Made by a program: the position numbers and the translations under genes
Assembly (NCBI RefSeq): GCF_004364775.1
Contig: NZ_SOAL01000003.1
Coordinates: 1 to 64,000 of the forward strand
Length of the DNA stretch: 64,000 nucleotides
Direction: 5' to 3'
From: Comamonas sp. JUb58
GTDB taxonomy: Bacteria > Pseudomonadota > Gammaproteobacteria > Burkholderiales > Burkholderiaceae_C
The notes under the pieces: model-generated
What the model saw: only the letters and a program-made list of their open reading frames with translations
Database searches by the model: none
Told to the model about the DNA's origin: nothing
Shown here: positions 6,029 through 29,756 of the stretch, piece after piece
Layout of the letters: each line of letters begins with the position of its first letter
Position numbering within the stretch: the first letter of the stretch is position 1

Positions 6029-6258
6029 GTAAGACGACGATTGAGCAGTCCGTGCGGGACAGCCTGCAGACCTATTTTCAGGATCTGGAAGGCGAGGTGC
6101 CGGACCGCGTGTACGAGATGGTGGTGCGCATGGTGGAGCGCCCCATGCTGGAGGTGGTGATGAACCACGCCGACAACAACCAGTCACGGGCCGCCGAGTG
6201 GCTGGGCCTGAACCGCAACACACTGCGCAAGAAGCTGGTCGAGCACAAGATGCTCTGA
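6025..6258 (+). CDS. fis: Fis-family nucleoid-associated DNA-binding protein
   Basis: 77 residues, nearly all of which is the Fis domain. The C-terminal helix-turn-helix reads MNHADNNQSRAAEWLGLNRNTLRKKLVEHKML, the typical Fis DNA-contacting segment. In enterics Fis bends DNA and stimulates rRNA promoters and site-specific inversion; the betaproteobacterial protein is shorter but shares the HTH. Its ATG overlaps the dusB stop, so translation is probably coupled, and dusB transcription should govern it. Confidence 0.93.
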   Translation: MSKTTIEQSVRDSLQTYFQDLEGEVPDRVYEMVVRMVERPMLEVVMNHADNNQSRAAEWLGLNRNTLRKKLVEHKML

Positions 6259-6336
6259 CCCGCGCCCTGATTTCAGTGCTGCTTGCGCCCGCTGCGCATG
6301 CGGCACAAGCCTGTTTCCATTCTTGAAGTGATTGAC

Positions 6337-7935
6337 ATGAAAGCCCTGATTTCCGTTTCCGACAAAACCGGTATTGTCGAGTTCGCCCAAGCCCTGCATG
6401 CGCTGGGCGTGCAGTTGCTGTCCACCGGCGGCACCGCCAAGCTGCTGGCCGATAAGGGCCTGCCCGTGACCGAGGTGGCCGAGGTCACCCGCTTCCCCGA
6501 GATGCTCGACGGCCGCGTCAAAACCCTGCACCCCATGGTGCATGGCGGCCTGCTGGCCCGTCGCGATCTGCCCGAGCACATGGCTGCACTGAAGGAACAC
6601 GGCATTGAGACCATCGACCTGCTGGTGGTGAACCTCTACCCCTTTGAAGCGACCGTGGCCAAGGCCGGTTGCACCCTGGCCGATGCCATCGAGAACATCG
6701 ACATTGGCGGCCCGGCGATGGTGCGCTCCGCTGCCAAGAACTGGAAGGATGTGGGCGTGATCACCGCCGCCGACCAGTACGACGCCGTGCTCGCCGAGCT
6801 GAAGGCCGGCGGCAAGCTGTCCCACAAGCTGCGCTTTGCCCTGTCGGTGGCCGCATTCAACCGCATCAGCCAGTACGACGGCGCGATCAGCAACTACCTG
6901 TCTTCGGTCACGTTCGAAGACGAAAAACTGTCCGAAGAATACGTGCCCGAGCGCGCTGCCTTCCCCGGCCAGAGCAACAGCCAGTTCATCAAGATCCAGG
7001 ACCTGCGCTATGGCGAAAACAGCCACCAGCAAGCCGCCTGGTACCGCGATCTGTACCCCGCACCCGGCTCTCTGGCCACGGGCGTGCAGCTGCAAGGTAA
7101 GGAATTGAGCTACAACAATATCGCCGATGCCGATGCCGCCTGGGAATGCGTCAAGAGCTTCGAGGTGCCGGCCTGCGTGATCGTCAAGCATGCCAACCCT
7201 TGCGGCGTGGCCGTGGGTGCCGATGCGTTTGAAGCCTACTCCAAGGCCTTCCAGACCGATCCGACCAGCGCTTTTGGCGGCATCATCGCCTTCAACCGCG
7301 CGGTGGACAAGGCAGCGGCCGAGGCTGTGTCCAAGCAGTTCGTCGAAGTGCTGATGGCCCCTGAGTTCAGCGCTGAAGCGCTGGAGATCTTCAAGTCCAA
7401 GGTCAATGTGCGCCTGATGAAGATTGCACTGCCCGCTGGCGGCAACAGCGACTGGGAGCAGGGCCGCAACGCCATTGAATCCAAGCGCGTGGGCTCGGGC
7501 ATCCTGCTGCAATCGGCCGACAACCATGAGCTGCAGCTGGCAGATCTGAAGATCGTGACCGTCAAGCAGCCCACCCAGGAAGAACTGCAAGACCTGCTGT
7601 TTGCCTGGAAGGTGGCCAAGTTCGTCAAGTCCAATGCCATCGTGTTCTGCAAGAACGGCATGACCATGGGCGTGGGCGCTGGCCAGATGTCGCGTCTGGA
7701 TTCGGCCCGTATCGCGTCGATCAAGGCAGAGGCGGCCAAGCTGTCGCTGCAGAACACCGTTGTGGCGTCGGATGCCTTCTTCCCCTTCCGTGACGGCCTG
7801 GATGTGGTGGTCGATGCCGGTGCCACCTGCGTGGCCCAGCCCGGTGGCTCGATGCGCGACCAGGAAGTGATCGATGCCGCCAACGAGCGCGGCGTGGCCA
7901 TGGTGTTCACCGGCGTGCGCCACTTCCGCCATTGA
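6337..7935 (+). CDS. purH: bifunctional AICAR transformylase / IMP cyclohydrolase
   Basis: Catalyses the last two steps of purine synthesis: formylation of AICAR by 10-formyl-THF and ring closure to IMP. 532 residues from ATG 6337; the longer in-frame ATG at 6283 adds 18 residues absent from the family. The N-terminal cyclohydrolase domain starts [19 protein letters not shown] and contains [18 protein letters not shown] and [11 protein letters not shown]. The transformylase domain contains [14 protein letters not shown], the catalytic [11 protein letters not shown] and [15 protein letters not shown], ending with [11 protein letters not shown]. It follows fis by 78 bases and probably shares its transcript. 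Confidence 0.97.
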
Positions 7936-12776: not shown

Positions 12777-13142
12777 GTGCCCATTCAAAAAGTTCTCATC
12801 GTTGATGACTCAAAAACTGAATTGATGTTTTTGAGTGATCTGCTTGTTCGCCAAGGTATGGTGGTGCGCACTGCGCAAAATGCGGATGAAGCGCTGTCGC
12901 GTCTGTCCGAAGACCGCCCTGACCTGATTCTGATGGACGTGGTGATGCCCGGACAAAACGGCTTTCAGCTGACCCGTCTGATCACCCGCAGCCCGGAATA
13001 TGCGGATATCCCGATCATCATGTGCACCAGCAAGAACCAGGAAACCGACCGGGTCTGGGGCATGCGCCAAGGTGCCAAGGGTTATGTGACCAAACCGGTG
13101 GATCCGGCCGAACTCAAGGCCAAGATCGAGGCACTGGGATAA
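12777..13142 (+). CDS. pilH: twitching-motility response regulator PilH
   Basis: 121 residues from GTG 12777, preceded by AAGGAGGGG. A stand-alone REC domain with LIVDDSKTE, phosphoacceptor Asp in LILMDVVMPGQNGFQ, IIMCTSKNQETD and the conserved Lys in YVTKPVD. The GQNGFQ and RVWGMRQGAKGY stretches are typical of PilH. In type IV pilus chemosensing it opposes PilG, acting as retraction-side regulator or phosphate sink. Nine bases after pilG and three before pilI, so co-transcribed. Confidence 0.92.
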   Translation: MPIQKVLIVDDSKTELMFLSDLLVRQGMVVRTAQNADEALSRLSEDRPDLILMDVVMPGQNGFQLTRLITRSPEYADIPIIMCTSKNQETDRVWGMRQGAKGYVTKPVDPAELKAKIEALG

Positions 13143-13145
13143 GGC

Positions 13146-13673
13146 ATGGCACAGCGCGAAGACTTGCGAGAGCTGCAAACCCGTCTGGCCGACCGTCTGA
13201 GCCAGGCACGCAACCAGACAGCGGTTGGTGCCTCGTGGTTGGCGGTCAAGATCAGTGGCAAGAACTTTCTGCTGCCTTTGAGCCAGTCCGGCGAAGTGCT
13301 GGGCTGGAGCGGGGTGGAGCCTGTACCCTACACCAAACCCTGGATGCTTGGCGTGACCAGCATCCGGGGTATTTTGTTGACGGTGGTGGACTTGGCCCGC
13401 ATGTTGGGCCTGCCCGTCTCGCGCAGTGAGCAGGTGTTTGCCGGGGCCTCGGTCGTCGCGCTCAATCCCATGATGGGCGTCAATGCCGCAGTGTTTGTCG
13501 AGCAGCTCGAAGGCTTGCGCGGCAGCAATGATTTCTCGCAATCCAAGGACAAGCCGGCCGATGCGCCGGAATTTTTTGGTGCGCTCTACACATCCGCCAG
13601 TGGCGAGCAGTGGCAGGAACTCAACCTGCAACTGCTGGCCAATGCGCCCGATTTTCTCGATATCACGGTTTAG
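13146..13673 (+). CDS. pilI: CheW-like coupling protein PilI
   Basis: 175 residues forming one CheW domain: [42 protein letters not shown], where the RG and VVDLA residues are the conserved core linking receptor to kinase. It should dock PilJ to ChpA at the inner membrane. It sits between pilH and pilJ with short gaps, matching pilGHIJ order elsewhere. Confidence 0.9.
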
Positions 13674-13711
13674 TGCGGGGCTTCCGCGGCTTCATCCCTT
13701 TCGGTATTTGT

Positions 13712-15979
13712 ATGTTCAACAAACTATTCAAACGCAAAGAAGACGTGGCAGACCCAGGTGTCAGCATCTTCCCAGATGGTGACCAGGTGATGCTCTCCGA
13801 AGGCTCGACCGGCGACGGCGTGTCTTCCTCCAAGAGCGCGGCAAGCGCCTCCGGCGTGGCTGCGTCGGACGATTACATGGCCCAGTTGGTCGAAGGCGAT
13901 ACCGCCAGCGAAGACCTGGTGACCCTGCCCGTACTGGGCGCCGCCACTGCTGCCAAGCACCAGAAGACATTGCTGTCCATCGTGGTCGTGGGTCTGGTGG
14001 TGTTCTTTGGCCTGGCGGTGTGGGCGATTCTGCAGTCGCGCACCACGGGCGGCCAGCTGGCCGCGACTGGTCAGGCACTGACCCAGTCCCAACGTCTGGC
14101 CAAATCGGTGGGCCAGGCCGTCAACGGTAATGAACAGGCCTTTGCTGAAGTGGCAGAAGCCTCGTCGATCCTGAAGAAGAACATCGACGGTCTGAACGCG
14201 GGCTCGGACGACCCCGCCATCAGGTCGCTGGGCAGCTCCTACGCCGAAGTGCTGGCACCGCTGGTGGAAGCCTCGGACCGCACTGCAAGCAAGAGCGATG
14301 CCGTGGTGAAGCAAAAAGCCTCGCTGGTCGCGATGAACAAGGACTTGCAGGCTATTCACCGCAACACCCAGACCCTGCTCGAGCTGAGCGAGGCGGTGGT
14401 GAGCCTGAAGCTGCAACAAGCCGCACCGACTGCCGAAATTGCCGCCGCCAGCCAGCTGGCCATGCTGACCCAGCGTATCGGTAAGTCTGCCAACGACTTC
14501 CAAAGCGCCTCGGGTGCGAACGCCGAAGCGGTGTTCCTGCTGGGCAAGGACTTGAACACCTTCAAGGAAATCGTCGCCGGTCTGCTCAACGGCAGCGCCG
14601 AGCTGCGCCTGAGCCCCGCCCGTGACGGCGCCGTGCGTGACAAGCTGCTGGAGCTGTCCGCCCAGTACGACATCACCTTGAAGGACGGCTCCTCGGTGCT
14701 GAGCAACCTGAAGGGCATCTCGGAAGCCCGTGAGGCTGAAGTCTCGATCCAGTCCGCCAGCGATCCGCTGCGCAAAGGCCTGGAAGTGCTGCAGGCTGAC
14801 CTGAACAGCTGGTCGGACCGCGTCTGGCTGTACCTGGTGGGCATTGTGCTGGCCGCCTTGCTGGTGGGCCTGGGTGTCTGGGGTCTGGTGCGTCTGCAGC
14901 TGGCAGACAGCTTGAACCGCCGCCGCTCTGCTGAATCGCTGCAACAAGAGGCAAGCCGCCAGGAGCAGGAGGCCAAGCGCCTCAACGATGCCAACCAGGC
15001 CGCTATTTTGCGTTTGATGAACGAACTGCAGTCCGTCGCTGAAGGTGACCTGACGCAGGAAGCGACCGTGACCGAAGACATCACCGGCGCCATTGCCGAC
15101 TCGGTGAACTACACGGTGGAAGAGCTGCGCATGCTGGTGGGCAGCGTGCAGAACACGGCGACCCGCGTGGCGCAGACCACGTCGACGGTGGACTCCACCT
15201 CGACCGAACTGCTGGCCGCCTCGACCGAGCAACTGCGCGAGATTCGCGAAACCGGCAAGTCCATTCTGGACATGGCGACCCGTATTAACCTCGTGTCCTC
15301 GCAGGCGCAGGAATCGGCTTCGGTGGCGCGTAAATCGCTGATGGCTGCCGAGACCGGTCTGCACGCGGTGGAAAACGCGATCGGTGGTATGAACTCCATC
15401 CGTGACCAGATCCAGGACACCTCCAAGCGTATCAAGCGCCTGGGTGAGTCCTCGCAGGAGATTGGTGAAATTACCGACCTGATCTCGGACATTACCGAAC
15501 AGACCAACGTGCTGGCATTGAACGCGGCCATTCAGGCTGCATCGGCTGGTGAAGCCGGTCGCGGCTTCTCGGTGGTGGCGGAAGAAGTGCAGCGCCTGGC
15601 GGAACGTTCCGCCGACGCAACACGCCAGATCTCGGTGCTGGTGAAAGCGATTCAGACCGACACCCAGGATGCGGTGGCCGCTATGGAACGTTCGACCCAG
15701 GGTGTGGTGGAAGGGGCCCGTCTGTCAGACAGCGCCGGTACTGCACTGAACGAAATTGACCGCGTTTCGCGTGAGCTGGCGGATCTGATTCAACAGATTT
15801 CCCGTTCTGCTTCCGACGAAGCGGTTCAGGCCAACGATGTGGCGGAGAATATCCAGCATATTTTTGCGGTGACGGAGCAGACCAGTGATGGTACCCGTAC
15901 CACGGCGCAGCAGGTGCGTGAGCTGTCGCAAATGGCCGAGGAGCTGCGCCAGTCGGTGTCTCGGTTCAAGATTGCCTGA
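13712..15979 (+). CDS. pilJ: type IV pilus methyl-accepting chemoreceptor PilJ
   Basis: 755 residues from ATG 13712 ([11 protein letters not shown]); an in-frame upstream start at 13610 would overlap pilI and is unlikely. An N-terminal cytoplasmic stretch of about 85 residues precedes the first membrane segment ([21 protein letters not shown]). A periplasmic helical region with two PilJ-type modules runs to about residue 370, and the second membrane segment is [26 protein letters not shown]-like linker and the signalling hairpin follow, with tip sequence [21 protein letters not shown]. It probably senses surface contact or pilin state and controls ChpA. Confidence 0.93.
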
Positions 15980-16024
15980 CCCATGCCTGCTGTTTAATTT
16001 TGACCCGCAATCGGGGACTGTTGC

Positions 16025-19000
16025 ATGTCTATAGCTATCGAAAATAAAGCGGAAAACGCGCAGCCAACAGAAGAGAGGGATCTCGGGCCATTGGCGTGGA
16101 TCAATGACGAGGTGCGCCGGTCACTGGAATCCACGGTCAAGGCATTGCTTCGGTACAGCCGGGATGTGGAAGCGGCCAAGGCATCGGATCTGGAGGCGAT
16201 CGATACCACCGGTATCCGGGTGGCCAAGCAGTACCTGCACCAGGTCAAGGGTGCCTTGCAGATGGTGGGTGTGGATCAGGCCGCTGAGCTGGTTGGTTTG
16301 ATGGAAGAGGCTGCGCAGCGCTTTGCGGCCAAGCCCCATCTGTGCACTGAGAAATCGGTCGCACTGATGGAGAAGACCTCGTTTGCGCTGCTGGAGTACC
16401 TGAGCCATGTGCTCAAGGGCCGCAACGTCTCCTTTGTGGCGCTGTTTCCACAGTACAAGGAAATGCAGGCTTTCACCGGGGTGGAGCGCGTCCACCCTGC
16501 CGACCTGTGGCATGGCGACCAGGCGCAGCAGGAGCCGCTGACCCCGGCCGTCGCTGCACTGCCGCTGGACCGCAGCGCCCGTGAGCGCCTGGACTCGGAC
16601 ATGCTGCAGATCATCAAATCTGCCGACAGCCGTGCCGCGCAGGATTTGACCGCAGTCTGCCTGGGCCTCGCCCAGGGCCAGACGCAAAAACCTCTGAAAC
16701 TGTTCTGGAAGGTGGCCGCAGGCTTCTTTGACGCGCTGGCGTACAAGTTGCTCGACCCCGACCTCTATGTGAAGCGCTCGGCGTCGCGGGTCATCATGCA
16801 GTTCGCAGCGCATGCCAAGGGTGGCAGCGATGTGGACCAGGGCCTGCAGCATGAGCTGAATTTCTTCTGTGCCGTTGCCCAGGGCCCGGATGAGGCCAAG
16901 GCGGCGGTGCTGCAAGCGGTGCGCGTCAGCCTGCAGACGGAGGCGCTGCAAGGCGTCAACTACGGCCAGGAACGCTTTGGCCAGTATGACCCGGCCGTGC
17001 TCGCACAAGCGCGCAAGCGCCTGGAGTCAGCTGCCGAGCTGTGGTCCTCGCTGGCCGATGGCGACCGCTACAAGATCAAGCCGGTGGCCGACCAGTTCCA
17101 CCTGATCCGCGAATCCCTGCACAAGCTGCACATTGGTGCCGATGAGCTGGGCGCGGCGCTGGGCCGTGTGACCGAGCGCCTGGTGACCACCGGCAACCCG
17201 CCCTCGACCCCGATGGCCATGGAAGTGGCCACCGCCGTGCTGTACCTGCAGGCCAATCTGGAATCGCTGGACGTCAAGCCCGCGCTGATGCGCGAGCGTG
17301 CCGACCGCCTGGCGCAGCGCCTGGACCATGTGCTGGCCGACCAGCCGCCCGAGCCGCTGGAGACCTGGGTGGAAGAGCTGTACCGCCGCGTCAGCGACCA
17401 CCAGACCATGGGCAGTGTGGTGGATGAACTCCACTCCACGCTGGCCGAGGCAGAAAAGCACCTGGACCAGTATTTCCGCAACCCGGAAGATGTGTCGATG
17501 CTGGGCTCGGTCACCGGTTCGCTGTCGCAGATGCGCGGCGTGCTGTCGGTGCTGGGCCTGGACCAGGCTGTGGCTGCCACGCAGCACCTGCGCACCGTGG
17601 TGGACCAACTGGCTGCCGGCCAGGTGAGCGACGAAGACAAGCCTGTCGTTTTTGAAAAGCTGGGCAACAGCCTGGGCGCCCTGGGCTTCCTGCTCGACAT
17701 GCTGGGCTACCAGCGCACCCTGGCGCGCAAGCTCTTTGTGTTTGATGCGACCAGCGGCGAGCTGCGCATTGTGATGGGCACGCAAAAGGCGGGCGATGTG
17801 GCACCTGCGCCGGTCGCAGCAGCGCCGGTGGCGGCGCCTGCCGAGCCCGAAGAGCCGGAAGACGATTCCGTCTACTTTGCGCCGACCATCCCGGCACCGC
17901 TGTTCGATGCCAGCCCTGCCCCGGCGCCCAAGGCGCCTGCGGTGCTCGCACCCGATCTGCAGTTCTTTGCGCCCGCTCCAGCGCCGGTTCAGGCTTCTGC
18001 CCCAGCGCCCGCAGCCGTGGCGGCAGCCCCGGCACAGCCCGAGGCCTCCGAGGAATCGCTGGACCAGGAACTGCTGGAAATCTTTTTGGAAGAAGCCCAG
18101 TCGGTCGTGCAGACCGGCGGCCAGGCGCTGCAATCGCTGCGCCGCAATGCGGACGACGCCGAGGCGCTGACGACCTTGCGCCGCGCCTTCCACACGCTCA
18201 AGGGCAGCTCCCGCATGGTTGGGCTGGTGCAATACGGCGACGCGGCCTGGTCGATGGAGCAGGTGCTCAACAGCTGGTTGGCCGAACACAAGCCGGCCAA
18301 TGCACCGCTGCTGGCACTGAGCGCGGAAGCGCTGACCGGCTTTGGCCGCTGGGCTGAGGACATTGGCGCGCAGCGCCAGTCCACCTGGAACCCGGAGATC
18401 TTCCGTATCTCGGCCGATGCCATGCGCATCGATGGTGTGCATTTGCCGCTGGTGGTGCCTGCCGAGCCCGGCCAAGCGCCCGTGGCCGAGGAATGGCCAC
18501 AGGACACGCAGCAGATGGCGCTGGACGCCGAAGCCCCCGACGCGGTGGAAGCCGCCGAGGCGCTGGCGGAGCTGGAACTGCCGGTGGAAGAAGAAGCCCC
18601 CGCGCCCGTGGCCCCCGCCGAGGAAGCGCCCGCGCTGGTCTGGCCGCTCGACGGTATCGATCTGGAGCTGGACCCGCCTGCTGCGCTGGAGCCCGAGCCT
18701 GCGCTCACCACGCCTTCGGGCCTGGTGCCGCTGTCCATGGCGCCCGAAAGCGCCGAGGAAGTGGACTTCTCCGAGTTTGCTCAGGCCATGGCCAGTGCCG
18801 AGGCCAAGAGCGCCGAAGCACAGACCCCCGAGGCCCTGCAGCCGCATGACAGCGCACTGGAATTTGTGTCGATGGATGCCGGCCTGGAGTTTGTCGGCGA
18901 GGAAGAGGCTGCCAAGCTGGAGCCCGTTCCAACCCGCTTGCCGCTGGAGCTGCCATCGCTGGACCTGACGGACGCGCCTGCCGCAGCCGTGCCACCCGCC

Positions 19001-22000
19001 ACCACCGCTTTCGACACGATCGAGTTTGCAGACACCATGCTGCCCGAGCTCGAAGCGCTGCCGCAAGAGCCGGTGGCCGAGCCCCAAAGCTTGCTGCTGG
19101 TGCCCGATGACCTGGTGCTGCCCGAGGCGACGACCGAGGCCGTCGAGATCCTGGAGATTGCAGACCTTGCAGTGCCTGAAATTCCACAGGACCAAGTCTC
19201 GGCAGAAAGCCTGAACGAGCTGCTGGCCCCTGCCGTAGAGCAGGCGCCTGAGCCTGCCGTGGAAGCTGCTGCCGCCGTGGAACTGGAAGCGCCGGCCGAG
19301 GTAGCTGCCGCGCAAGAAGTGCCGGTACCGCCAGAAGCCCCGGTGGAAGAACTGGCCGAGGATATCGCAGCCGTGGCCCCGGCACCCGCTGTGGCCGAAG
19401 CAGAGGCAGCGGCAGAAGAGCCTGCCGATGTAGCCAATGTGCTGGGCGTGAGCACGGCGCTGTTCAATGTCTACCTGACCGAAGCTGAGAACTGGTCGCA
19501 CAACCTGGAGAAGGTGTTGTATGCCTGGGCCCAGGCGCCCAACCGCAACTTCCCCGAAGATGCGATTGCCTACGCCCATTCGCTGGCCGGCAGCTCGTCC
19601 ACCGTGGGTTTCAACTCGCTGTCCGAGCTGGCGCGCTCGCTGGAGCATGCGCTCTCGCACATCCACAACTTCTCCAACCCGGAAGTCGCCTGGCTCAATA
19701 CCTGCCAGGCCGCGGGCTCGGAGATCCGCAAGCTGCTGCACCAACTGGCGGCCGGCTTTGTCAAGCCTGCCAGCGAGATCGTCGTGCAGGACCTGGTCGA
19801 CATTGCCAACCAGGAAATCAACTCGCAGCTGCACCCGCCCTATGGCTATGCCGAGTTCGATGCCGAGCCTTCGGGCCTGGCCGCGCTGCATGAAGAAGAG
19901 CATCCGCAGGCATCTGCCGCCATCGAGCCCGTTCGCACCTTTGCGCCTGCGGCCGTGGTGTCGGCGGCAGCCCTGCCTGATGTGCTGGAGCTGCGCAACG
20001 ACGATGCGATCGAAGTGGTCGACGTCATTGACCCCGACCTGTTCCTGATCTTCGAAGAAGAAGCGCAGGAGCTGCTGCCCAAGCTGGGTGGGGCTTTGCG
20101 CGAGTGGTCGGCCGACCCGCAGTACCTGCCGCCGCGCGGCGAAGTGCTGCGCCATCTGCACACCCTCAAGGGCAGTGCACGGCTGGCGGGCGCAATGCGC
20201 CTGGGCGAAATGTCGCACCGCATGGAATCCGAGGTCGAGGACATCGGCACGGAAAACCTGACCGGCCAGGACATCGACATCCTGCTGGCGCGCTACGACG
20301 GCCTGCAGCACGAGTTTGTCGGTCTGCAAGAGCGCGGCAACCAGGTGCTGGCACAAGGTGCCTTGCCCCAGCAAGTGCCTGCCGCCACCGAAATGGGCGA
20401 AGTGGTGGCCGAAGTGGCCGCCAGCACGCCAGCCGCGCAGGAAAGCGCCGGTGCCGACCAGGCTGCGCAAGCGGCTGATGCGGCCGACGCAGGCGCCGGC
20501 GTACAGCACAAGCCGCTGATGCTGCGCATGGCGCCGGTGCGTGCCGCTGCCGGCCAGTCGGTGCGTGTGCGCTCGCAGCTGCTCGACCGCCTGGTCAACG
20601 AGGCGGGCGAGGTGCTGATTGCCCGCTCGCGTCTGGACATGCGCCTGAGCAACATCCGCTCGTCCATCAAGGACATGTCGAGCAACCTGGAGCGCTTGCG
20701 CACCTTGCTGCGCGATGTGGAAATGCAGGCCGAGTCGCAGATGCAGTCGCGCATGGCGCTGGCCAAGGATTCGGAATCGGGATTTGATCCGCTGGAGTTC
20801 GACCGCTTCACCCGCGTGCAGGAACTCACCCGCATGATGGCCGAATCGGTCAACGACGTGGGTACGGTGCAGCGCAATCTGCAGCGTACCGCCGAAGGTG
20901 CGGAAGATGACTTGATTGCCCAGGGCCGCCAGGCCCGTGAGTTGCAGCGCGACCTGCTGCGCACGCGCATGGTGGAGTTCGACTCCATCTCCGAGCGTCT
21001 CTATGCCATCGTGCGCCAGATCTCCAAGGAGCTGGGCAAGCAGGTCAAGCTGGACATCACCGGCGCCTCGATCGAGATCGACCGTGGCGTGCTGGACCGG
21101 GTGACCCCGGCGTTCGAACACTTGCTGCGCAACAGTGTGGCCCACGGTATCGAAACGCCCGACGAGCGCAAGGCCCAGGGCAAGCAGCCGGTAGGCATCA
21201 TCGCCATCGATGTGCGCCAGGAAGGCAACGATATCGCCGTGTCCATCCACGACGATGGCGCGGGCCTGCAACTCGACGCGATTCGCCGCAAGGCGATGCA
21301 GTCGGGCCTGATCACGGCCGACGAGTCGCTGGATGTGGACAAGGCTGCACAGCTGATTTTTGCGCCCGGCTTCTCCACCGCTTCCGAAGTGTCTGAGCTG
21401 TCGGGCCGGGGTATCGGCATGGACGTGGTGCGGACCGAGATCCAGTCGCTGGGTGGCCACATCGTGACCACGTCGGAGACCGGCAAGGGCACGCGCTTCC
21501 AGATGGTGATGCCGCTGACCACCGCCGTCACCCAGGTGGTGATGATGCGTGCTGGTGATATCAAGTTTGGCGTGCCGGCCAACCTGGTGGAGTATGTGCG
21601 ACGCGTGCCCAAGGCACTGATCGAGCAGGCCCACACCAACAACATCTACACCGACAACGAGCAAGAGCTGCCGTTCTACTTTGCCGGCGCGCTGCTGCAG
21701 GGCAACCTGCGCAGCAATGAGGAGCCGGAGAAGACCAGTGCGGTCGTGATTCTGCGCTCTGCCACCAAGCGCGTGGCGGTCCACGTCGATGAAGTGCTGG
21801 GCAACCAGGAAGTGGTGGTCAAGAACCTGGGCCCGCAGCTGGCGCGTTTGCCAGGCCTGGCAGGCATGTCGGTACTGGCATCCGGTGCGATTGTGCTGAT
21901 CTACAACCCAGTGGCTTTGTACACCGTGTATGGCGATCAGATCGCCGAGCGCATTGCCCAGGCGGCCGTGCGCCCCGAGGTGGCCAAGGCGCCGGTGCGC

Positions 22001-22426
22001 GAACTGGCCGAGCAAGTGGTGCAGACGCCATTGGTGTTGGTGGTCGACGACTCCATCACCGTGCGCCGCGTGACCCAGCGTTTGCTGCAGCGCGAAGGCT
22101 ACCGTGTGGCACTGGCCGCCGATGGCCTGCAGGCGCTGGACCGTTTGCGCGAAGAGCGCCCGGTCATGGTGCTCTCGGACATCGAGATGCCACGCATGGA
22201 CGGCTTCGAGCTGGTGCGCGAGATCCGTGCCGATGCGGCGATGAAGGACCTGCCGGTGGTGATGATCACCTCGCGCATTGCCGACAAGCACCGCGAGCAC
22301 GCGGCCAGCCTGGGTGTGGACCACTACCTGGGCAAGCCCTATGCCGACGAAGTGCTGCTCTCGCTGGTACGCCAGTGCGTGCTGGACGACGAGATCAAGG
22401 CGGCCGACGCCGGCCCGCTGCACTGA
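16025..22426 (+). CDS. chpA: ChpA/PilL-type hybrid chemosensory histidine kinase
   Basis: 2133 residues. Hpt-like segments carry histidines near 72 (LHQVKG, weak), 723 (FHTLKGSSRMVG), 1185 (AHSLAGSS) and 1379 (LHTLKGSARLAG). Long Ala/Pro/Glu-rich linkers separate them (about 590-690 and 830-1130). The CheA core follows: dimerisation helix LLDRLVNEAGEVLIARSRLDM, N-box HLLRNSVAHGIETPDER, IHDDGAGL and LSGRGIGMDVVR ATP-lid motifs, a CheW-like domain, then a C-terminal REC with LVVDDSITVRRV and phosphoacceptor Asp near 2052 (LSDIEMPRMDGF). It should phosphorylate PilG and PilH and its own REC. Last gene of the cluster; a strong terminator follows. Confidence 0.93.
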   Translation: MSIAIENKAENAQPTEERDLGPLAWINDEVRRSLESTVKALLRYSRDVEAAKASDLEAIDTTGIRVAKQYLHQVKGALQMVGVDQAAELVGLMEEAAQRFAAKPHLCTEKSVALMEKTSFALLEYLSHVLKGRNVSFVALFPQYKEMQAFTGVERVHPADLWHGDQAQQEPLTPAVAALPLDRSARERLDSDMLQIIKSADSRAAQDLTAVCLGLAQGQTQKPLKLFWKVAAGFFDALAYKLLDPDLYVKRSASRVIMQFAAHAKGGSDVDQGLQHELNFFCAVAQGPDEAKAAVLQAVRVSLQTEALQGVNYGQERFGQYDPAVLAQARKRLESAAELWSSLADGDRYKIKPVADQFHLIRESLHKLHIGADELGAALGRVTERLVTTGNPPSTPMAMEVATAVLYLQANLESLDVKPALMRERADRLAQRLDHVLADQPPEPLETWVEELYRRVSDHQTMGSVVDELHSTLAEAEKHLDQYFRNPEDVSMLGSVTGSLSQMRGVLSVLGLDQAVAATQHLRTVVDQLAAGQVSDEDKPVVFEKLGNSLGALGFLLDMLGYQRTLARKLFVFDATSGELRIVMGTQKAGDVAPAPVAAAPVAAPAEPEEPEDDSVYFAPTIPAPLFDASPAPAPKAPAVLAPDLQFFAPAPAPVQASAPAPAAVAAAPAQPEASEESLDQELLEIFLEEAQSVVQTGGQALQSLRRNADDAEALTTLRRAFHTLKGSSRMVGLVQYGDAAWSMEQVLNSWLAEHKPANAPLLALSAEALTGFGRWAEDIGAQRQSTWNPEIFRISADAMRIDGVHLPLVVPAEPGQAPVAEEWPQDTQQMALDAEAPDAVEAAEALAELELPVEEEAPAPVAPAEEAPALVWPLDGIDLELDPPAALEPEPALTTPSGLVPLSMAPESAEEVDFSEFAQAMASAEAKSAEAQTPEALQPHDSALEFVSMDAGLEFVGEEEAAKLEPVPTRLPLELPSLDLTDAPAAAVPPATTAFDTIEFADTMLPELEALPQEPVAEPQSLLLVPDDLVLPEATTEAVEILEIADLAVPEIPQDQVSAESLNELLAPAVEQAPEPAVEAAAAVELEAPAEVAAAQEVPVPPEAPVEELAEDIAAVAPAPAVAEAEAAAEEPADVANVLGVSTALFNVYLTEAENWSHNLEKVLYAWAQAPNRNFPEDAIAYAHSLAGSSSTVGFNSLSELARSLEHALSHIHNFSNPEVAWLNTCQAAGSEIRKLLHQLAAGFVKPASEIVVQDLVDIANQEINSQLHPPYGYAEFDAEPSGLAALHEEEHPQASAAIEPVRTFAPAAVVSAAALPDVLELRNDDAIEVVDVIDPDLFLIFEEEAQELLPKLGGALREWSADPQYLPPRGEVLRHLHTLKGSARLAGAMRLGEMSHRMESEVEDIGTENLTGQDIDILLARYDGLQHEFVGLQERGNQVLAQGALPQQVPAATEMGEVVAEVAASTPAAQESAGADQAAQAADAADAGAGVQHKPLMLRMAPVRAAAGQSVRVRSQLLDRLVNEAGEVLIARSRLDMRLSNIRSSIKDMSSNLERLRTLLRDVEMQAESQMQSRMALAKDSESGFDPLEFDRFTRVQELTRMMAESVNDVGTVQRNLQRTAEGAEDDLIAQGRQARELQRDLLRTRMVEFDSISERLYAIVRQISKELGKQVKLDITGASIEIDRGVLDRVTPAFEHLLRNSVAHGIETPDERKAQGKQPVGIIAIDVRQEGNDIAVSIHDDGAGLQLDAIRRKAMQSGLITADESLDVDKAAQLIFAPGFSTASEVSELSGRGIGMDVVRTEIQSLGGHIVTTSETGKGTRFQMVMPLTTAVTQVVMMRAGDIKFGVPANLVEYVRRVPKALIEQAHTNNIYTDNEQELPFYFAGALLQGNLRSNEEPEKTSAVVILRSATKRVAVHVDEVLGNQEVVVKNLGPQLARLPGLAGMSVLASGAIVLIYNPVALYTVYGDQIAERIAQAAVRPEVAKAPVRELAEQVVQTPLVLVVDDSITVRRVTQRLLQREGYRVALAADGLQALDRLREERPVMVLSDIEMPRMDGFELVREIRADAAMKDLPVVMITSRIADKHREHAASLGVDHYLGKPYADEVLLSLVRQCVLDDEIKAADAGPLH

Positions 22427-24420: not shown

Positions 24421-25464
24421 TCAGTGCTCGGGCGCGAAGCAGACCAGGTGCTCGGGCTTGGCACGCAGGCCAATGCTGTCGCCCAGCGCATGCTGCAGCT
24501 GGCTGGAGACCTGGGCATAGACCAGCTGCTGGCTGGGCAGCTGCATCGTGTACAGGTACTGTGATCCCCGGAAGGACTTGCGCAGCAAGGTCGCGCGGTA
24601 GGGCGAGTCCGCATCAAACACCACCTCGCTGGCGCGCAGCAGCACATCGCAGGCCTCTGGGACCTCAGGTGTCGCAATGGCACCGAGGGGCGTATCAAGC
24701 TGCCAGCCTTGCGCAGACGAGATCGGGCTGGCCGGCAGCAGGCTGCCATGGCCGATAAAGTTGGCCACAAAGCGGCTCGCCGGCTTTTGGAACAGGGTGG
24801 TGGCATCAGCCCATTGGTGCAGATGGCCGCTTTCCATCACGCCGATCTGGTCGCCAATGGCAAAGGCTTCCAGCTGGTCATGGGTGACGAAGAGGGCGGT
24901 TGCCTGCGCAGCTTTGAGGATGTCGCGCAGTTCATGGGCCAGGCGCTCGCGCAGGTCCACATCCAGGTTGGAGAAGGGCTCGTCAAGCAGCATCAGCTGC
25001 GGCTCGGGTGCCAGCGCCCGGGCCAGCGCCACGCGCTGCTGCTGGCCGCCAGAGAGCTCATGCGGGTAGCGTGACGCGCTGTTCTCCAGCCCCACCAGGC
25101 GCAGTACCTCTTGCACGCGCGCTTGCTGCTCGGCCTTGGGCCGTTGGTGGATACCAAAGGCCACGTTCTTGCCGACCGTCAGATGCGGGAAGAGGGCGTA
25201 GTCTTGGAACACCATGCCGATGCGGCGCTTTTCTGGTGGCAGATTGGCGCTGCTGCTGCTGACCATCTGGCCTTGCAGGCGGATCTCGCCGCTGCTGATG
25301 GGTTCGAGCCCGGCGACCGCACGCAGCAAGGTCGTCTTGCCGCAGCCCGAGGGGCCAATCAGCACGCCTATATCGCCCGCCTGCAGCTGCAAAGACACCT
25401 GCGCCACGGCAGGCTGGGGGCGCCCGGCGTAGCGCACATTCAGTTGGGAGACCTCTAGAAACAT
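24421..25464 (-). CDS. fbpC: FbpC-type ferric iron ABC transporter ATPase
   Basis: 347 residues from ATG 25462-25464. Complete ABC ATPase: Walker A GPSGCGKTTLLR, Q-loop region GMVFQDYALFPHLTV, signature LSGGQQQRVALARAL, Walker B LMLLDEPFSNLDVDLR, H-loop FVTHDQ. The residues after about 240 form the OB-like regulatory domain of the iron/spermidine/sulfate group. Together with the divergent FbpB-like permease it should import ferric iron. The iron-binding FbpA is not adjacent. Substrate is inferred from family resemblance; related anion or thiamine importers are possible. Confidence 0.85.
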   Translation of the reverse strand: MFLEVSQLNVRYAGRPQPAVAQVSLQLQAGDIGVLIGPSGCGKTTLLRAVAGLEPISSGEIRLQGQMVSSSSANLPPEKRRIGMVFQDYALFPHLTVGKNVAFGIHQRPKAEQQARVQEVLRLVGLENSASRYPHELSGGQQQRVALARALAPEPQLMLLDEPFSNLDVDLRERLAHELRDILKAAQATALFVTHDQLEAFAIGDQIGVMESGHLHQWADATTLFQKPASRFVANFIGHGSLLPASPISSAQGWQLDTPLGAIATPEVPEACDVLLRASEVVFDADSPYRATLLRKSFRGSQYLYTMQLPSQQLVYAQVSSQLQHALGDSIGLRAKPEHLVCFAPEH

Positions 25465-25552: not shown

Positions 25553-27187
25553 TTGCAAAATCTCGCCCGCTTCCGTCGTCAGCTGCTGTTGGTAGCCATT
25601 GCTTTGGTGTTGGTGTTGCCGGTGCTCACGGTTTTCAGCGCCTGGCTGCCCGGGGCGGGCAATGACGCCGATGCCTTTGCCGTGGTGCGCGAGATGTTTG
25701 CCACGGTGCTGCCCGGCTATATCCAAACCACGGTGGCGCTGGGCGTGATGGTGGCGCTGGGCTCGGCGGTGCTGGGCAGCTTGTGCGCGGCGGTGGTGAC
25801 CTTGTTCGACTTTCGCGGCCGCAAGACCTTGGAGTGGTTGCTGCTGCTGCCGCTGGCCATGCCGGCCTATGTGACGGCCTATGCCTATACCGATTTTCTG
25901 CAGTTCAGCGGGCCGCTGCAGGTATGGATGCGCGCCAGCTTTGGGCTGCAAGGGCGCTTGCTGCCCGAGGTGCGTTCGCTCGGCGGCGCCGTGCTGGTGT
26001 TTGTGGTGTCGCTCTACCCGTATGTTTACCTGCTGGCCCGGACCGCTTTGAGCGAGCGCGCCGCGCACCTGATGGAAGCCGCGCGTCTGCTGGGTGCGTC
26101 GATGCCGCGCCGCATCTGGACGGTGGCCTTGCCGATGGCCCGGCCGGCGGTGGTGGCTGGTGTGGCGCTGGTGATGATGGAGACCCTGGCCGATTTCGGC
26201 GTGGTGAGCTACTTTGGCATCCAGACCTTCACCACCGGCATCTACAAGGCCTGGCTGTCCATGGAAAACCGCAGTGCTGCGGCCCAGCTGGCGACGATGC
26301 TGCTGGTCTTGGTGCTGATTGTGCTGCAGCTGGAGCTGCGCGCGCAGCGGCGCATGCGCTTTGTCACCAGCGGGGTGGGGCGCGCCTCATCGGCCGAGGC
26401 CCAGCCTTACCGCCTGCAAGGCGCGCGCTGCCTGGCGGCCTGGCTGGTCTGTGCCCTGCCGGTGCTGCTGGGTTTTGTGCTGCCGGTCATGTTCATGCTG
26501 CGGCCCCTGGCGGCCGATTGGTCGGTGATTCCGCTGGACCGCTTTGTGCAGTGGGCTGGCAACAGCATCCGCTTTGGTGCCATCACCGCCGTGCTGGCCG
26601 TGGCCATTGCGATGCTGGCCGCCTATGCGGCACGCCGCAGCCAGGACTGGGTCACGCGCAGCACCGTGGGTCTTATCAGCCTGGGCTATGCGGTGCCCGG
26701 CGCGGTGATTGTGGTGGGCTTGTTGCTGCCGGTGGGCTGGGTGCAGCAGGCGTTTCCGCAATGGGGCTTTCCGGCGCTGATCACCGCCACCTCGACCGGC
26801 ATCATCTGGGCCTACCTCGTGCGCTTTACCGCCATTGCGTTGCAGTCCCTGCAAAGCGGCTACACCCGCATTCCCAAGAGCCTGGATGAATCGGCGCGCA
26901 TGCTGGGCGTTGGCAGCGCCGGCCTGCTGGCCCGCGTGCATGGCCCGCTGCTGCGCCGCTCAGCCTTGACCGCCGCCTTGCTGGTCTTTGTCGATGTGAT
27001 GAAGGAGCTGCCCGCCACGATGGTGCTGCGTCCTTTCAACAGCGACACCCTGGCCGTCGTGGCCTACCAGCTGGCGCGCGATGAGCGCCTGGGTGAGGCG
27101 GCCTTGCCGTCCCTCGCGCTGGTGCTGGTGGGACTGGTGCCGGTCATCTTGCTGATCCGCACCATGCGCAGCTCGGCAGCGCGCTGA
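25553..27187 (+). CDS. fbpB: FbpB-type ferric iron ABC transporter permease (fused double permease)
   Basis: 544 residues with two tandem sets of about six membrane segments, the duplicated layout of FbpB/SfuB. Both cytoplasmic coupling (EAA) loops are visible: LMEAARLLGASMPRRIWTVALPMARPA in the first half and KSLDESARMLGVGSAGLLARVHGPLLRR in the second. ADFGVVSYFGIQTFTTGIYKAW is a hallmark of the iron permease group. The start is TTG 25553. It is divergent from fbpC; the 88-base gap holds TAGAAT (25517-25522) as a possible -10 for this gene. No clear Fur box was found by eye. Confidence 0.85.
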   Translation: MQNLARFRRQLLLVAIALVLVLPVLTVFSAWLPGAGNDADAFAVVREMFATVLPGYIQTTVALGVMVALGSAVLGSLCAAVVTLFDFRGRKTLEWLLLLPLAMPAYVTAYAYTDFLQFSGPLQVWMRASFGLQGRLLPEVRSLGGAVLVFVVSLYPYVYLLARTALSERAAHLMEAARLLGASMPRRIWTVALPMARPAVVAGVALVMMETLADFGVVSYFGIQTFTTGIYKAWLSMENRSAAAQLATMLLVLVLIVLQLELRAQRRMRFVTSGVGRASSAEAQPYRLQGARCLAAWLVCALPVLLGFVLPVMFMLRPLAADWSVIPLDRFVQWAGNSIRFGAITAVLAVAIAMLAAYAARRSQDWVTRSTVGLISLGYAVPGAVIVVGLLLPVGWVQQAFPQWGFPALITATSTGIIWAYLVRFTAIALQSLQSGYTRIPKSLDESARMLGVGSAGLLARVHGPLLRRSALTAALLVFVDVMKELPATMVLRPFNSDTLAVVAYQLARDERLGEAALPSLALVLVGLVPVILLIRTMRSSAAR

Positions 27188-27331: not shown

Positions 27332-27344
27332 ATAGGTGACCTAT
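27332..27344. promoter_or_regulatory. perfect 13-bp palindrome upstream of the FNR-type box
   Basis: ATAGGTGACCTAT has symmetric arms ATAGGT/ACCTAT around one central base and lies seven bases upstream of the FNR-type box. It may be an operator for a second regulator; I do not recognise it as a known consensus. Confidence 0.4.
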
Positions 27345-27351
27345 ATCGCGT

Positions 27352-27393
27352 TTGATCTGGATCAAACAAACGCTTCGGGTTTCCCCCTAAACT
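27352..27393 (+). promoter_or_regulatory. FNR/ANR-type box and promoter of the ABC-phosphatase operon
   Basis: TTGAT-CTGG-ATCAA at 27352-27365 matches the FNR/ANR consensus TTGAT-N4-ATCAA at all ten fixed bases. TAAACT at 27388-27393 is a plausible -10. A start near 27400 places the box centre at about -41.5, the class II activator position. The following genes would therefore be induced at low oxygen. Confidence 0.75.
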
Positions 27394-27520
27394 GGATTTT
27401 TGAAACATTAATTGACTATTGGTGTTTCGTTTTTTGAATCACCAAGATGGTCTACATCTGCGTGATCGGATGGCTGGCGCGCCGAGGTCGTGCCCGGCTT
27501 GGCTTTCTGTCCACCTCCCA

Positions 27521-28930
27521 ATGCCGCCAAGCGGCTCCCATCGCGTGCAAACACCAACACCCGTTCTGGAAACAGACAACTGGGGCGTGGCCTATGGCGA
27601 CAAGGTCATTCTCTCCAGCCTGCAATTGCAGATTGCCCCTTGCGCCATCACGGCCTTGATGGGGCCGGTGGGCGGCGGCAAGTCCACGGTGTTGCGCAGC
27701 CTGGCGGGCCTCAATGACGAGAACCCGCGCTTTGTGCAATGGGGGCAGCTGCGCTATGCCGGCCAGCCGCTGGCGAGCGATCACCGACCGCACTTGGTGC
27801 GCCAGCATGTGCGTCTGATGCAGTCGAGTGTGCAGGATTCAATCAGCGAGTTGCTGCCACAAGCCCACTTGCTCTCCGGCCTGGACCGCCGGGCCTGGTG
27901 CGAGGCCTATCTGGACCGCATGGGTTTTGCCGATATCAAGCCGATGTTGGCGCAGACGACAGTGGAGCTGTCGGCCATGCACCAGCGAGCGGTTGCTATT
28001 CTGCGCGAGGCCGCTGCCCAGCCCCTTTTGTTGATGTGCGATGAGCCCAGCGCTGATTTGCAGGACTACGACAGCTACCTGCTGCTGGAGCTGCTCAAGC
28101 GCATTGCCCAGGAGCGCGCCGTGCTGCTGGTGACCCACAACCAGCGCCATGCCCAGCGGGTGGCCGACCATGTGCTGCTGCTGGCCGGTGGCGCGGTGCA
28201 GGAGACCAGCCGCGCCGAGCACTTTTTCTCCGCACCCTATTCACCGGCAGGCCAGCAGTTTGTGCGCAGCGGCAGCTGTGCGGTGGTGGTGCCGCAGCAG
28301 TCGGTGCAAGAGGCCATGGAGGCCGAATCTGTGCCCGCAGCAGCCCAGGCGCCCGCCCCCACCGCTGCGCAGGCCGCACGCCAAAGCCAGCGCGCGGTAT
28401 TGCCCGATCTGGCCCTGGCCAACCCGGTGCTGGCGGCCGAACACTTTGTGCCCAGCGCACGCGGTCCGCGCGGCTTTGCCTGGCTGGTGCCCGGCAAGCT
28501 GGCAGGCACGCCGTTGCCGGGTGTGGTCAACGACGCCGATGTGGACTTGCAGGCTTTGAAGCGCTGCGGTGTCACCGTGCTGGTGTCCTTGACCGAGAAA
28601 GATATTGACCAGGCAGCGCTGGCGCGCAATGGCCTGCGCAATGTGCATCTGCCGGTGCATGACCGTGAGCCGCCTTCGGTGTCTCAGCTGCAGATGCTGA
28701 TGCTCAAGATGAAGCGCCTGCTGCTGGCGGGCGAGGTGCTGGCGGTGCACTGCCTGGCAGGCCTGGGCCGCACGGGCACCGTGCTGGCAGCCTGGCTGGT
28801 TTTTGAAGGCGTCACCGCTGAAGAAGCGCTGCGCCGTGTGCGCGAGATCGAGCCGCAGTACGTGCAGTCCGAGCAGCAAGAACGCTCGCTGTTGGCGTAT
28901 GAAGAAATGCTGCTCGAAAAAATGGGCTGA
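27521..28930 (+). CDS. ABC-type ATPase fused to a dual-specificity protein phosphatase
   Basis: 469 residues from ATG 27521 (numbering used here); TTG 27419, GTG 27422 and ATG 27470 are in-frame alternatives without good ribosome binding sites. Residues about 15-260 form a PstB-like ABC domain: Walker A GPVGGGKST (Lys54), Walker B LLLMCDEPSADL (Asp174, Glu175) and H-loop VTHNQ. The signature is degenerate: LSAMHQ (150-155) instead of LSGGQ. An Ala/Pro/Gln linker (about 270-300) leads to a phosphatase domain with general-acid candidate Asp381 (HDREPPS) and the P-loop HCLAGLGRTG (Cys411, Arg417). No membrane segments and no adjacent permease, so transport is unlikely; a cytoplasmic signalling role is inferred. 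Confidence 0.85.
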   Translation: MPPSGSHRVQTPTPVLETDNWGVAYGDKVILSSLQLQIAPCAITALMGPVGGGKSTVLRSLAGLNDENPRFVQWGQLRYAGQPLASDHRPHLVRQHVRLMQSSVQDSISELLPQAHLLSGLDRRAWCEAYLDRMGFADIKPMLAQTTVELSAMHQRAVAILREAAAQPLLLMCDEPSADLQDYDSYLLLELLKRIAQERAVLLVTHNQRHAQRVADHVLLLAGGAVQETSRAEHFFSAPYSPAGQQFVRSGSCAVVVPQQSVQEAMEAESVPAAAQAPAPTAAQAARQSQRAVLPDLALANPVLAAEHFVPSARGPRGFAWLVPGKLAGTPLPGVVNDADVDLQALKRCGVTVLVSLTEKDIDQAALARNGLRNVHLPVHDREPPSVSQLQMLMLKMKRLLLAGEVLAVHCLAGLGRTGTVLAAWLVFEGVTAEEALRRVREIEPQYVQSEQQERSLLAYEEMLLEKMG

Positions 28931-28981
28931 TCGCACCCGAGGTGCCAGCCCTTTATCAACCCACTTTGAAGGAATACATCA

Positions 28982-29386
28982 ATGTCCATGGATACCGTTT
29001 TGCAGAAAGTCGCTACCTTTGTGCCCGAATGTCTGGCCGCCGGCTATGTCGACGTGGCCACGGGCATGCTGCTGGCGATTCGCACGGTGGATTCGCACCC
29101 GCGCGAGGTCATCGACCTGGTGGCTGCTGCAACGGCTGACCTTTTCAACGGCCCCAATGTCTCGATGATCGAGCGCATGTTCAAGAAGTCGCGTGGCCTG
29201 CAGGACGATGGCCACCACTACTTTCAAGAGATCATCGTCAACAGCGACAACCTGATCCACATCTTCATGCGCGGCAAGGCCAACCCCGAGTATGTGGCCG
29301 TGCTGGTCTGCCGCCGCACCGCCAACCTGGGCATGGCGCTGACCAAGGCGCGCATCATCATGCCGGAGCTGGAAGCCTCTCTGTAA
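28982..29386 (+). CDS. roadblock/LC7-like small protein
   Basis: 134 residues, 51 bases after the ABC-phosphatase with GAAGGA before its ATG. The layout resembles the roadblock/LC7 alpha-beta fold: CLAAGYVDVATGMLLAIRTV (first strand pair), helix EVIDLVAAATADLFN, HHYFQEIIVNSDNLIHIFMRG (central strands), then VAVLVCRRTANLGMALTKARIIMPELEA. Bacterial roadblock proteins often regulate small GTPases or act as scaffolds; no GTPase is nearby. The assignment is by pattern only. It most likely works with the fused ATPase-phosphatase. Confidence 0.65.
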   Translation: MSMDTVLQKVATFVPECLAAGYVDVATGMLLAIRTVDSHPREVIDLVAAATADLFNGPNVSMIERMFKKSRGLQDDGHHYFQEIIVNSDNLIHIFMRGKANPEYVAVLVCRRTANLGMALTKARIIMPELEASL

Positions 29387-29399
29387 TAAGATGGCGGGC

Positions 29400-29756
29400 A
29401 TGGCCCAAGACACCATCACCATCTACCACAACCCGCGCTGCAGCAACTCGCGCGGCGCGCTGGCGCTGATTGAGGCGCAGGGCATCCAGCCCCAGGTAAT
29501 CGACTACCTGCACGCACAGCTGAGCCCTGCGCATTTGACGGCGCTGATCGCCCAACTGGGCGTGCCAGTGCGTGAGGTGATGCGCAGCAAAGAGGCCATT
29601 TACCACGAGCTGGACCTGGGCCGAGAAGGCCTGAGCGATGCCGAGCTGATCGCGCAGATCGCCGCCCACCCCGTGCTGCTGAACCGGCCGATTGTGGTGA
29701 GCGCCAAAGGGGCCCGTTTGTGCCGCCCGCCTGAGCGGGTGCTCGACCTGCTCTGA
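29400..29756 (+). CDS. arsC: ArsC/YffB-family thioredoxin-fold reductase
   Basis: 118 residues from ATG 29400 (ATG 29391 is alternative), 13 bases after the roadblock-like gene. Thioredoxin-like fold with the ArsC active site NPRCSNSR; the cysteine is about residue 13. REVMRSKEAIYHELDL and PVLLNRPIVVSAKGARLCRPPERVLDLL match glutaredoxin-dependent arsenate reductases. The conserved NRPIV motif is intact. No arsR or arsB is close, so a redox or phosphatase-linked role in this operon is possible. Arsenate reduction is family knowledge, not shown here. Confidence 0.85.
   Translation: MAQDTITIYHNPRCSNSRGALALIEAQGIQPQVIDYLHAQLSPAHLTALIAQLGVPVREVMRSKEAIYHELDLGREGLSDAELIAQIAAHPVLLNRPIVVSAKGARLCRPPERVLDLL

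Follow-up and report, generated by a model that had tools for sequence, protein, structure and literature searches.

An ABC ATPase-phosphatase fusion and a roadblock-fold protein form a conserved gene pair in Comamonas sp. JUb58 and its relatives

In a 64,000-nucleotide stretch of Comamonas sp. JUb58 DNA (contig NZ_SOAL01000003.1, positions 1 to 64,000; hereafter the window), one gene joins an ATP-binding cassette (ABC) ATPase to a dual-specificity phosphatase (DSP) and is followed closely by a gene for a roadblock/LC7-like protein. Comparison of loci and genomes showed that the fusion gene and the roadblock gene stay adjacent and that genomes with one mostly have the other too. As a tentative reading that falls just short of probable, we propose that the pair encodes a signalling module of two proteins, probably cytoplasmic, in which the roadblock protein acts as regulator and the ABC ATPase, its signature degenerate, gates the phosphatase. 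The features of the pair are as follows, in window coordinates and with residues numbered from the ATG at 27521:

27521..28930, forward strand: ABC ATPase-DSP phosphatase fusion, 469 aa (the frame is also open from an upstream TTG at 27419)
27662..27688, forward strand: Walker A motif GPVGGGKST, aa 48-56
27962..27985, forward strand: degenerate ABC signature VELSAMHQ in the place of LSGGQ, aa 148-155
28028..28051, forward strand: Walker B motif LLMCDEPS, aa 170-177
28271..28462, forward strand: Ala/Pro/Gln-rich linker, aa 251-314
28463..28927, forward strand: DSP phosphatase domain, aa 315-469 (Pfam DSPc, PTP-SAK and Tc-R-P; profile likeness to 25xa and DUSP23)
28649..28675, forward strand: LPVHDREPP with the general-acid candidate Asp381 (Asp in 38/38 family members)
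28748..28777, forward strand: phosphatase signature HCLAGLGRTG with catalytic Cys411, aa 410-419
28982..29386, forward strand: roadblock/LC7-like protein of MglC/MglB fold, 134 aa (from the model)

The ABC-DSP fusion and the roadblock gene are kept side by side

The comparison took in 41 loci built around roadblock genes with strong matches (L036-L070 and L096-L101). In 37 of the 41, a single open reading frame holds both ABC and DSP and is a same-strand neighbour of the roadblock gene. An initial annotation of the window had described this combination of genes and proposed a comparison of gene order and frames among homologs; the comparison was run and turned up neither unconserved neighbours nor a misjoined frame, the latter being ruled out by the shared frame of all 37 ABC-DSP loci. 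The fusion gene comes first in 32 of these, with gaps of -11 to 270 nt, and the roadblock gene in five (L058, L059, L060, L063, and L064). Four loci have no ABC-DSP (L053, L056, L065, and L070). L053, once a candidate aerotaxis-receiver/roadblock fusion, was rejected as such because the locus has decayed, leaving a DSP remnant in frame ahead of the roadblock gene, and L056 is a second, lone roadblock gene in genome G018. Delftia L043 carries an additional roadblock gene upstream, and genome G003 has two ABC-DSP/roadblock pairs (L047 and L059) of opposite gene order. The loci are not fully independent, since L040/L041 and L066/L067 are near-identical; L041 was therefore omitted from the tree comparison, in which shared species history stands uncorrected. 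Gene calls came from a simple in-house caller, with some starts wrong and some genes missed (e.g., LC7 in L099 and L101).

The pair also travels together across genome sets, in counts uncorrected for phylogeny. Among 299 family genomes, the roadblock gene was found in 23 and a strong DSP match (at E 1.8e-51 or lower) in 22; both occur in 21, the roadblock gene only in two (G121 and G295), the DSP only in one (G066), and neither in 275. The DSP copy in G066 lacks about 60 aa of the ABC/linker region, and no roadblock match lies in the 13 kb around it. In the class set of 369 genomes, the strong tiers of the roadblock gene (at E 1.8e-56 or lower) and of the DSP (at E 9.1e-50 or lower) fall in the same 8, and 15 further genomes have distant roadblock relatives only. 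Weaker DSP matches (E 4e-24 or worse; 11 more family and 27 more class genomes) were scored as non-ABC-DSP. The 398 phylum genomes gave a roadblock match in 36, strong in five (G000, G128, G219, G462, and G663, all of the window's class). Comamonas koreensis and Comamonas sp. B21-038 are the nearest named relatives for the region, with 100% identity in the roadblock protein. It is extremely unlikely that the two genes are unlinked neighbours held together by conserved synteny without shared function: close Comamonas relatives (L036-L038) do share most of the surrounding genes, but the pair persists as the flanks change across genera, occurs in two gene orders and co-occurs near one-to-one. Plasmid cargo was set aside too, as no ABC-DSP match at 1e-40 was found among 72,556 plasmid records.

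The frame of the fusion, 27419-28930 on the forward strand, is open from two candidate starts, TTG 27419 and ATG 27521. We favour the ATG as the predicted start, because homologs begin near there and L038 has a 14-nt insertion between the candidates; with it the catalytic Cys becomes residue 411, in agreement with the numbering of the initial annotation. Pfam recognises ABC_tran (6.9e-15), DSPc (3e-12), and PTP-SAK (1.9e-19), so that the earlier description of a PstB-like ABC ATPase and a CX5R phosphatase in one frame holds. PstB is the top NCBIfam ABC match (107.5 bits, cut-off 343.2) and provides the closest fold (9k3s). All 38 family members retain the Walker A motif, the DEP in Walker B, and the H-loop His; none contains LSGGQ (0/38), that position reading mostly LSxxxQ or LPxxxQ. 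The fusion thus has the ABC fold and Walker motifs of PstB-type ATPases, but differs from them in its degenerate signature, its C-terminal phosphatase and, usually, the absence of a permease gene nearby.

By profile, the DSP half resembles a bacterial DSP family protein (25xa) and human DUSP23, with which it shares the HCx5RTG loop and the general-acid Asp; unlike them, it is fused behind an ABC ATPase via a flexible linker, and the fusion model has low predicted local distance difference test (pLDDT) values over aa 269-337. The HCx5R loop is present at 37/37 ABC-DSP loci and, together with the Asp, predicts an active DSP phosphatase. The DSP could instead act on a phosphorylated small molecule, which would make the module metabolic rather than one of protein signalling. 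Two Pfam matches lean that way, PTP-NADK passing its cut-off (4e-8) and PTPlike_phytase falling short of it (0.0018), and the nearest solved phosphatases, 25xa and DUSP23, decide nothing on substrate, but the roadblock partner points to signalling, and we regard a small-molecule substrate as unlikely.

The roadblock protein and its kinship with GTPase modules

The 134-aa protein, encoded 51 nt behind the fusion gene, has no Pfam match to E 1 (and hence none to Robl_LC7, PF03259) and no NCBIfam match to 0.1, and searches of PDB sequences with the protein and its profile returned weak unrelated rows only (E 0.08 or worse). Profile-profile comparison with LC7 set A3 gave 88.5%, over 54 columns only. 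The model of the protein has the alpha-beta-beta-alpha-beta-beta-beta-alpha order of the roadblock fold, and by this predicted fold the protein is a member of the Roadblock/LC7 superfamily, as the initial annotation had proposed. The top Foldseek match of the model is MglC of Myxococcus xanthus (7ct3), but at an identity of only 20% (Foldseek) to 24% (VIA). We know of no ABC or phosphatase partner of MglC. In the available part of PMC7949163, MglC is described as a roadblock paralog that binds MglB.

Distant relatives tell more about this kinship. The class search returned 16 regions with such relatives (L102-L117; E 2.8e-20 to 2.2e-12), and a GTPase gene stands beside the roadblock gene in 12 of them, the exceptions being L102, L103, L109, and L112, the last with a contig end close to its roadblock gene. 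BLAST found an LC7 gene as well in 10 of the 12, and a related protein of 217-356 aa recurs in 9 of the 16; the candidate receiver-like protein of these regions had no Pfam match in the one scanned, L104. As set out in the available part of PMC4316618, a Group 3 MglA system comprises a receiver-like/winged helix-turn-helix protein, MglA, and one or two MglB proteins, and by analogy the distant loci would fit this description. Fold and distant relatives together place the roadblock protein among the MglB/MglC-type proteins found in Group-3-MglA-like GTPase modules, a link that the initial annotation had missed.

The window resembles a Group 3 MglA system in its roadblock protein, which corresponds to the MglB homolog, and in that distant roadblock relatives come with a GTPase and mostly an LC7 gene. 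It differs in that its operon has no receiver-like/winged helix-turn-helix gene, no MglA-type GTPase and no LC7 gene, the constant partner being the ABC-DSP fusion, which the part of PMC4316618 available does not mention in its account of these systems. The operons of actinobacterial conservons (CvnABCD) likewise combine a roadblock protein with a Ras-like GTPase and a signalling protein that uses ATP, again according to the available part of PMC4316618; the window has ABC-DSP instead, with no histidine kinase-like CvnA and no GTPase in the operon. In Snodgrassella, mutation of an orphan Group 3 mglB alters colony edge morphology and host colonisation (PMC11112851, available part), and therefore orphan roadblock genes of such a kind can matter.

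The roadblock protein might still regulate an MglA-type small GTPase encoded elsewhere, with ABC-DSP as its effector or an accessory. A GTPase gene adjoins or lies near the pair at 8 of the 37 loci (L066, L067, L069, and L097-L101), and, except at L097, an LC7 gene accompanies it; above cut-off, Pfam matched L066 to ATP_bind_1, L067 to Robl_LC7, and L069 to both. Across the 29 carrier genomes, GTPase matches were found in 20 and LC7 matches in 24, and the window genome itself (G000) encodes two related GTPases (C1 and C5) and one LC7 protein outside the window locus. Against this stand four near-complete genomes (G129, G135, G136, and G213) that keep the pair with no GTPase and no LC7 match at E 0.001, because of which we conclude that the GTPase is unneeded for retention of the pair. 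Moreover, the MglA-like C5 GTPase has roadblock neighbours of its own, in a separate run (L119 5332-7464) with a 234-aa protein, LC7, and a 119-aa protein that by eye is roadblock-like. On balance, we find service to a distant GTPase rather doubtful.

Other genes were seen beside distant roadblock relatives. A family of proteins of about 505 aa is encoded just downstream in 10 of the 16 distant regions (L104-L107, L110-L112, and L115-L117), on the strand opposite to the roadblock gene in eight and on the same strand in two; a scan of one member found a calcineurin-like phosphoesterase domain. In L102 (3268-5061), two roadblock genes in tandem follow a PP2C phosphatase gene, and no GTPase lies in the 11.6 kb covered. 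This recurring phosphatase theme fits the mechanism proposed for ABC-DSP and its roadblock partner. Five Ruegeria plasmids carry roadblock relatives of 34-39% identity; on a plasmid of Ruegeria sp. B32 (L128 2136-10677), a roadblock relative at 6001-6402 lies among four annotated dynamin-family genes, with a serine/threonine kinase gene nearby. Dynamin is another kind of nucleoside triphosphatase (NTPase).

Neighbouring genes and the FNR-type site

The surroundings of the pair in the window comprise the following features:

24421..25464, reverse strand: ATPase gene, likely the permease partner, on the far side of the permease
25553..27187, forward strand: two-domain binding-protein-dependent permease, a neighbour outside the module
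27352..27365, forward strand: predicted FNR-type site TTGATCTGGATCAA, both half-sites perfect (0 mismatches)
27388..27393, forward strand: putative -10 element TAAACT (by eye)
29391..29756, forward strand: ArsC, glutaredoxin-type arsenate reductase (TIGR00014, 8.1e-41)

The initial annotation had stated that no transporter permease lies nearby, which is wrong, as a two-domain permease on the same strand ends 333 nt before the ATG of the fusion. With such a neighbour, and with an ABC domain that is PstB-like in sequence and fold, the domain might energise a transporter, for example this very permease, and the phosphatase would be a regulatory domain. The permease cluster recurs in 8 of 36 neighbourhoods (each 4-15 kb), but is missing from the other 28; in the window the separate ATPase gene at 24421-25464 is the obvious partner of the permease, and LSGGQ is lost throughout the family. 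A transport role is thus very unlikely.

On the other side of the pair, arsC follows the roadblock gene after 4 nt, and the initial annotation had counted its product, correctly seen as an ArsC-fold protein, as part of the system. The adjacency stands, but not the membership: ArsC scores 139.1 bits against the TIGR00014 equivalog (cut-off 106.05), and we rejected it as a core member because it is an ordinary arsenate reductase that occurs in 13 of 36 neighbourhoods. A check for anti-phage defence with PADLOC gave one partial match only, of mad3 to part of the ABC domain.

The predicted FNR-type site is one of only 10 perfect sites in the 5.46-Mb genome. If TAAACT served as the -10 element, the FNR box would be centred at -41.5 of a start near 27400. 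This hexamer is kept in L036-L038, not in L039, and a scan for the sigma-70 consensus listed no promoter for its region. Like the window, 5 of 37 other fused loci carry a perfect TTGATNNNNATCAA site ahead of the fusion (L036-L039 and L042), with differing spacers in L038, L039, and L042; the flanks of L039 no longer align, and its half-sites persist. L064 has, in the 700 nt ahead of Walker A, a one-mismatch site inside its roadblock gene. The operon in the window does lie behind an FNR-type site, as initially annotated, but FNR control as a general feature was rejected on these counts.

Several neighbours are linked to oxygen or redox. In L040, genes for protoglobin-GGDEF-EAL-like, MCP, ABC-DSP, and roadblock proteins form a run with three one-mismatch FNR sites upstream (206-314), each reading TTGACNNNNATCAA. 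The L041 upstream region encodes protoglobin-GGDEF-EAL and PAS-HAMP-MCP receptor proteins (Pfam), with homologs in L040. A Fer2-globin protein is encoded downstream of the pair in L069 (Pfam), with BLAST relatives in L045, L097, L098, and L099. Such neighbours support an oxygen or redox theme; they show no mechanism. In the window itself, about 5 kb upstream (12858-22426), a run of genes for response-regulator-like proteins, chemotaxis-like proteins and very large ones (2086 aa) resembles by eye a Pil-Chp chemosensory cluster.

A possible mechanism and its implications

In the mechanism that we tentatively propose, a roadblock dimer would dock on the ABC ATPase, an NTPase partnered instead of, or besides, a Ras-like GTPase, and would set its ATP-bound dimer state. 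The ABC part would serve as an ATP switch rather than a transport motor, a reading suggested by the loss of the LSGGQ glycines and the usual lack of a permease neighbour. Its state would position or gate the DSP on the flexible linker, and the gated DSP would dephosphorylate a phosphorylated partner, probably a protein. FNR may raise expression at low oxygen in Comamonas and one Xenophilus. The initial annotation had suggested a low-oxygen switch in which an ATP-driven change would be coupled to protein dephosphorylation.

Several observations weigh against this proposal. Confidence in the DSP model is middling (pLDDT blocks of 58-82 from aa 341, lower before). No perfect FNR site lies within 700 nt upstream of Walker A at 32 of the 37 fused loci. 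G121 has a roadblock gene without any strong DSP, and G066 the reverse. Frames of 466-550 aa hold a few of the weaker DSP matches, and other DSP fusions without this roadblock protein may therefore exist. Finally, the roadblock protein may still serve a GTPase, because the window genome has two GTPases and an LC7 protein and most carriers (20 of 29) have a GTPase.

A more speculative extension, possible yet improbable as it stands, is that the roadblock protein switched partners from a Ras-like GTPase to the ABC ATPase, whose ATP-driven dimerisation would be governed by the roadblock protein and would in turn directly control the fused DSP, with oxygen control in some lineages. In the open-licence PMC literature, we found no described pathway that combines an ABC-DSP fusion with a roadblock protein, as the initial annotation had surmised; the roadblock-module fold and its kinship were already known, and the ABC-DSP partner is apparently undescribed there. 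Roadblock proteins are partners of Ras-like GTPases and dynein, and Koonin and Aravind reportedly proposed in 2000 that they are general NTPase regulators. That proposal becomes directly testable with two small, probably soluble proteins. If the partner switch is true, roadblock proteins would be general docking regulators of several kinds of NTPase, often linked to phosphatases. A stable pairing of a roadblock protein with a phosphatase-bearing ABC ATPase would extend both roadblock biology and the role of ABC ATPases as signalling switches.

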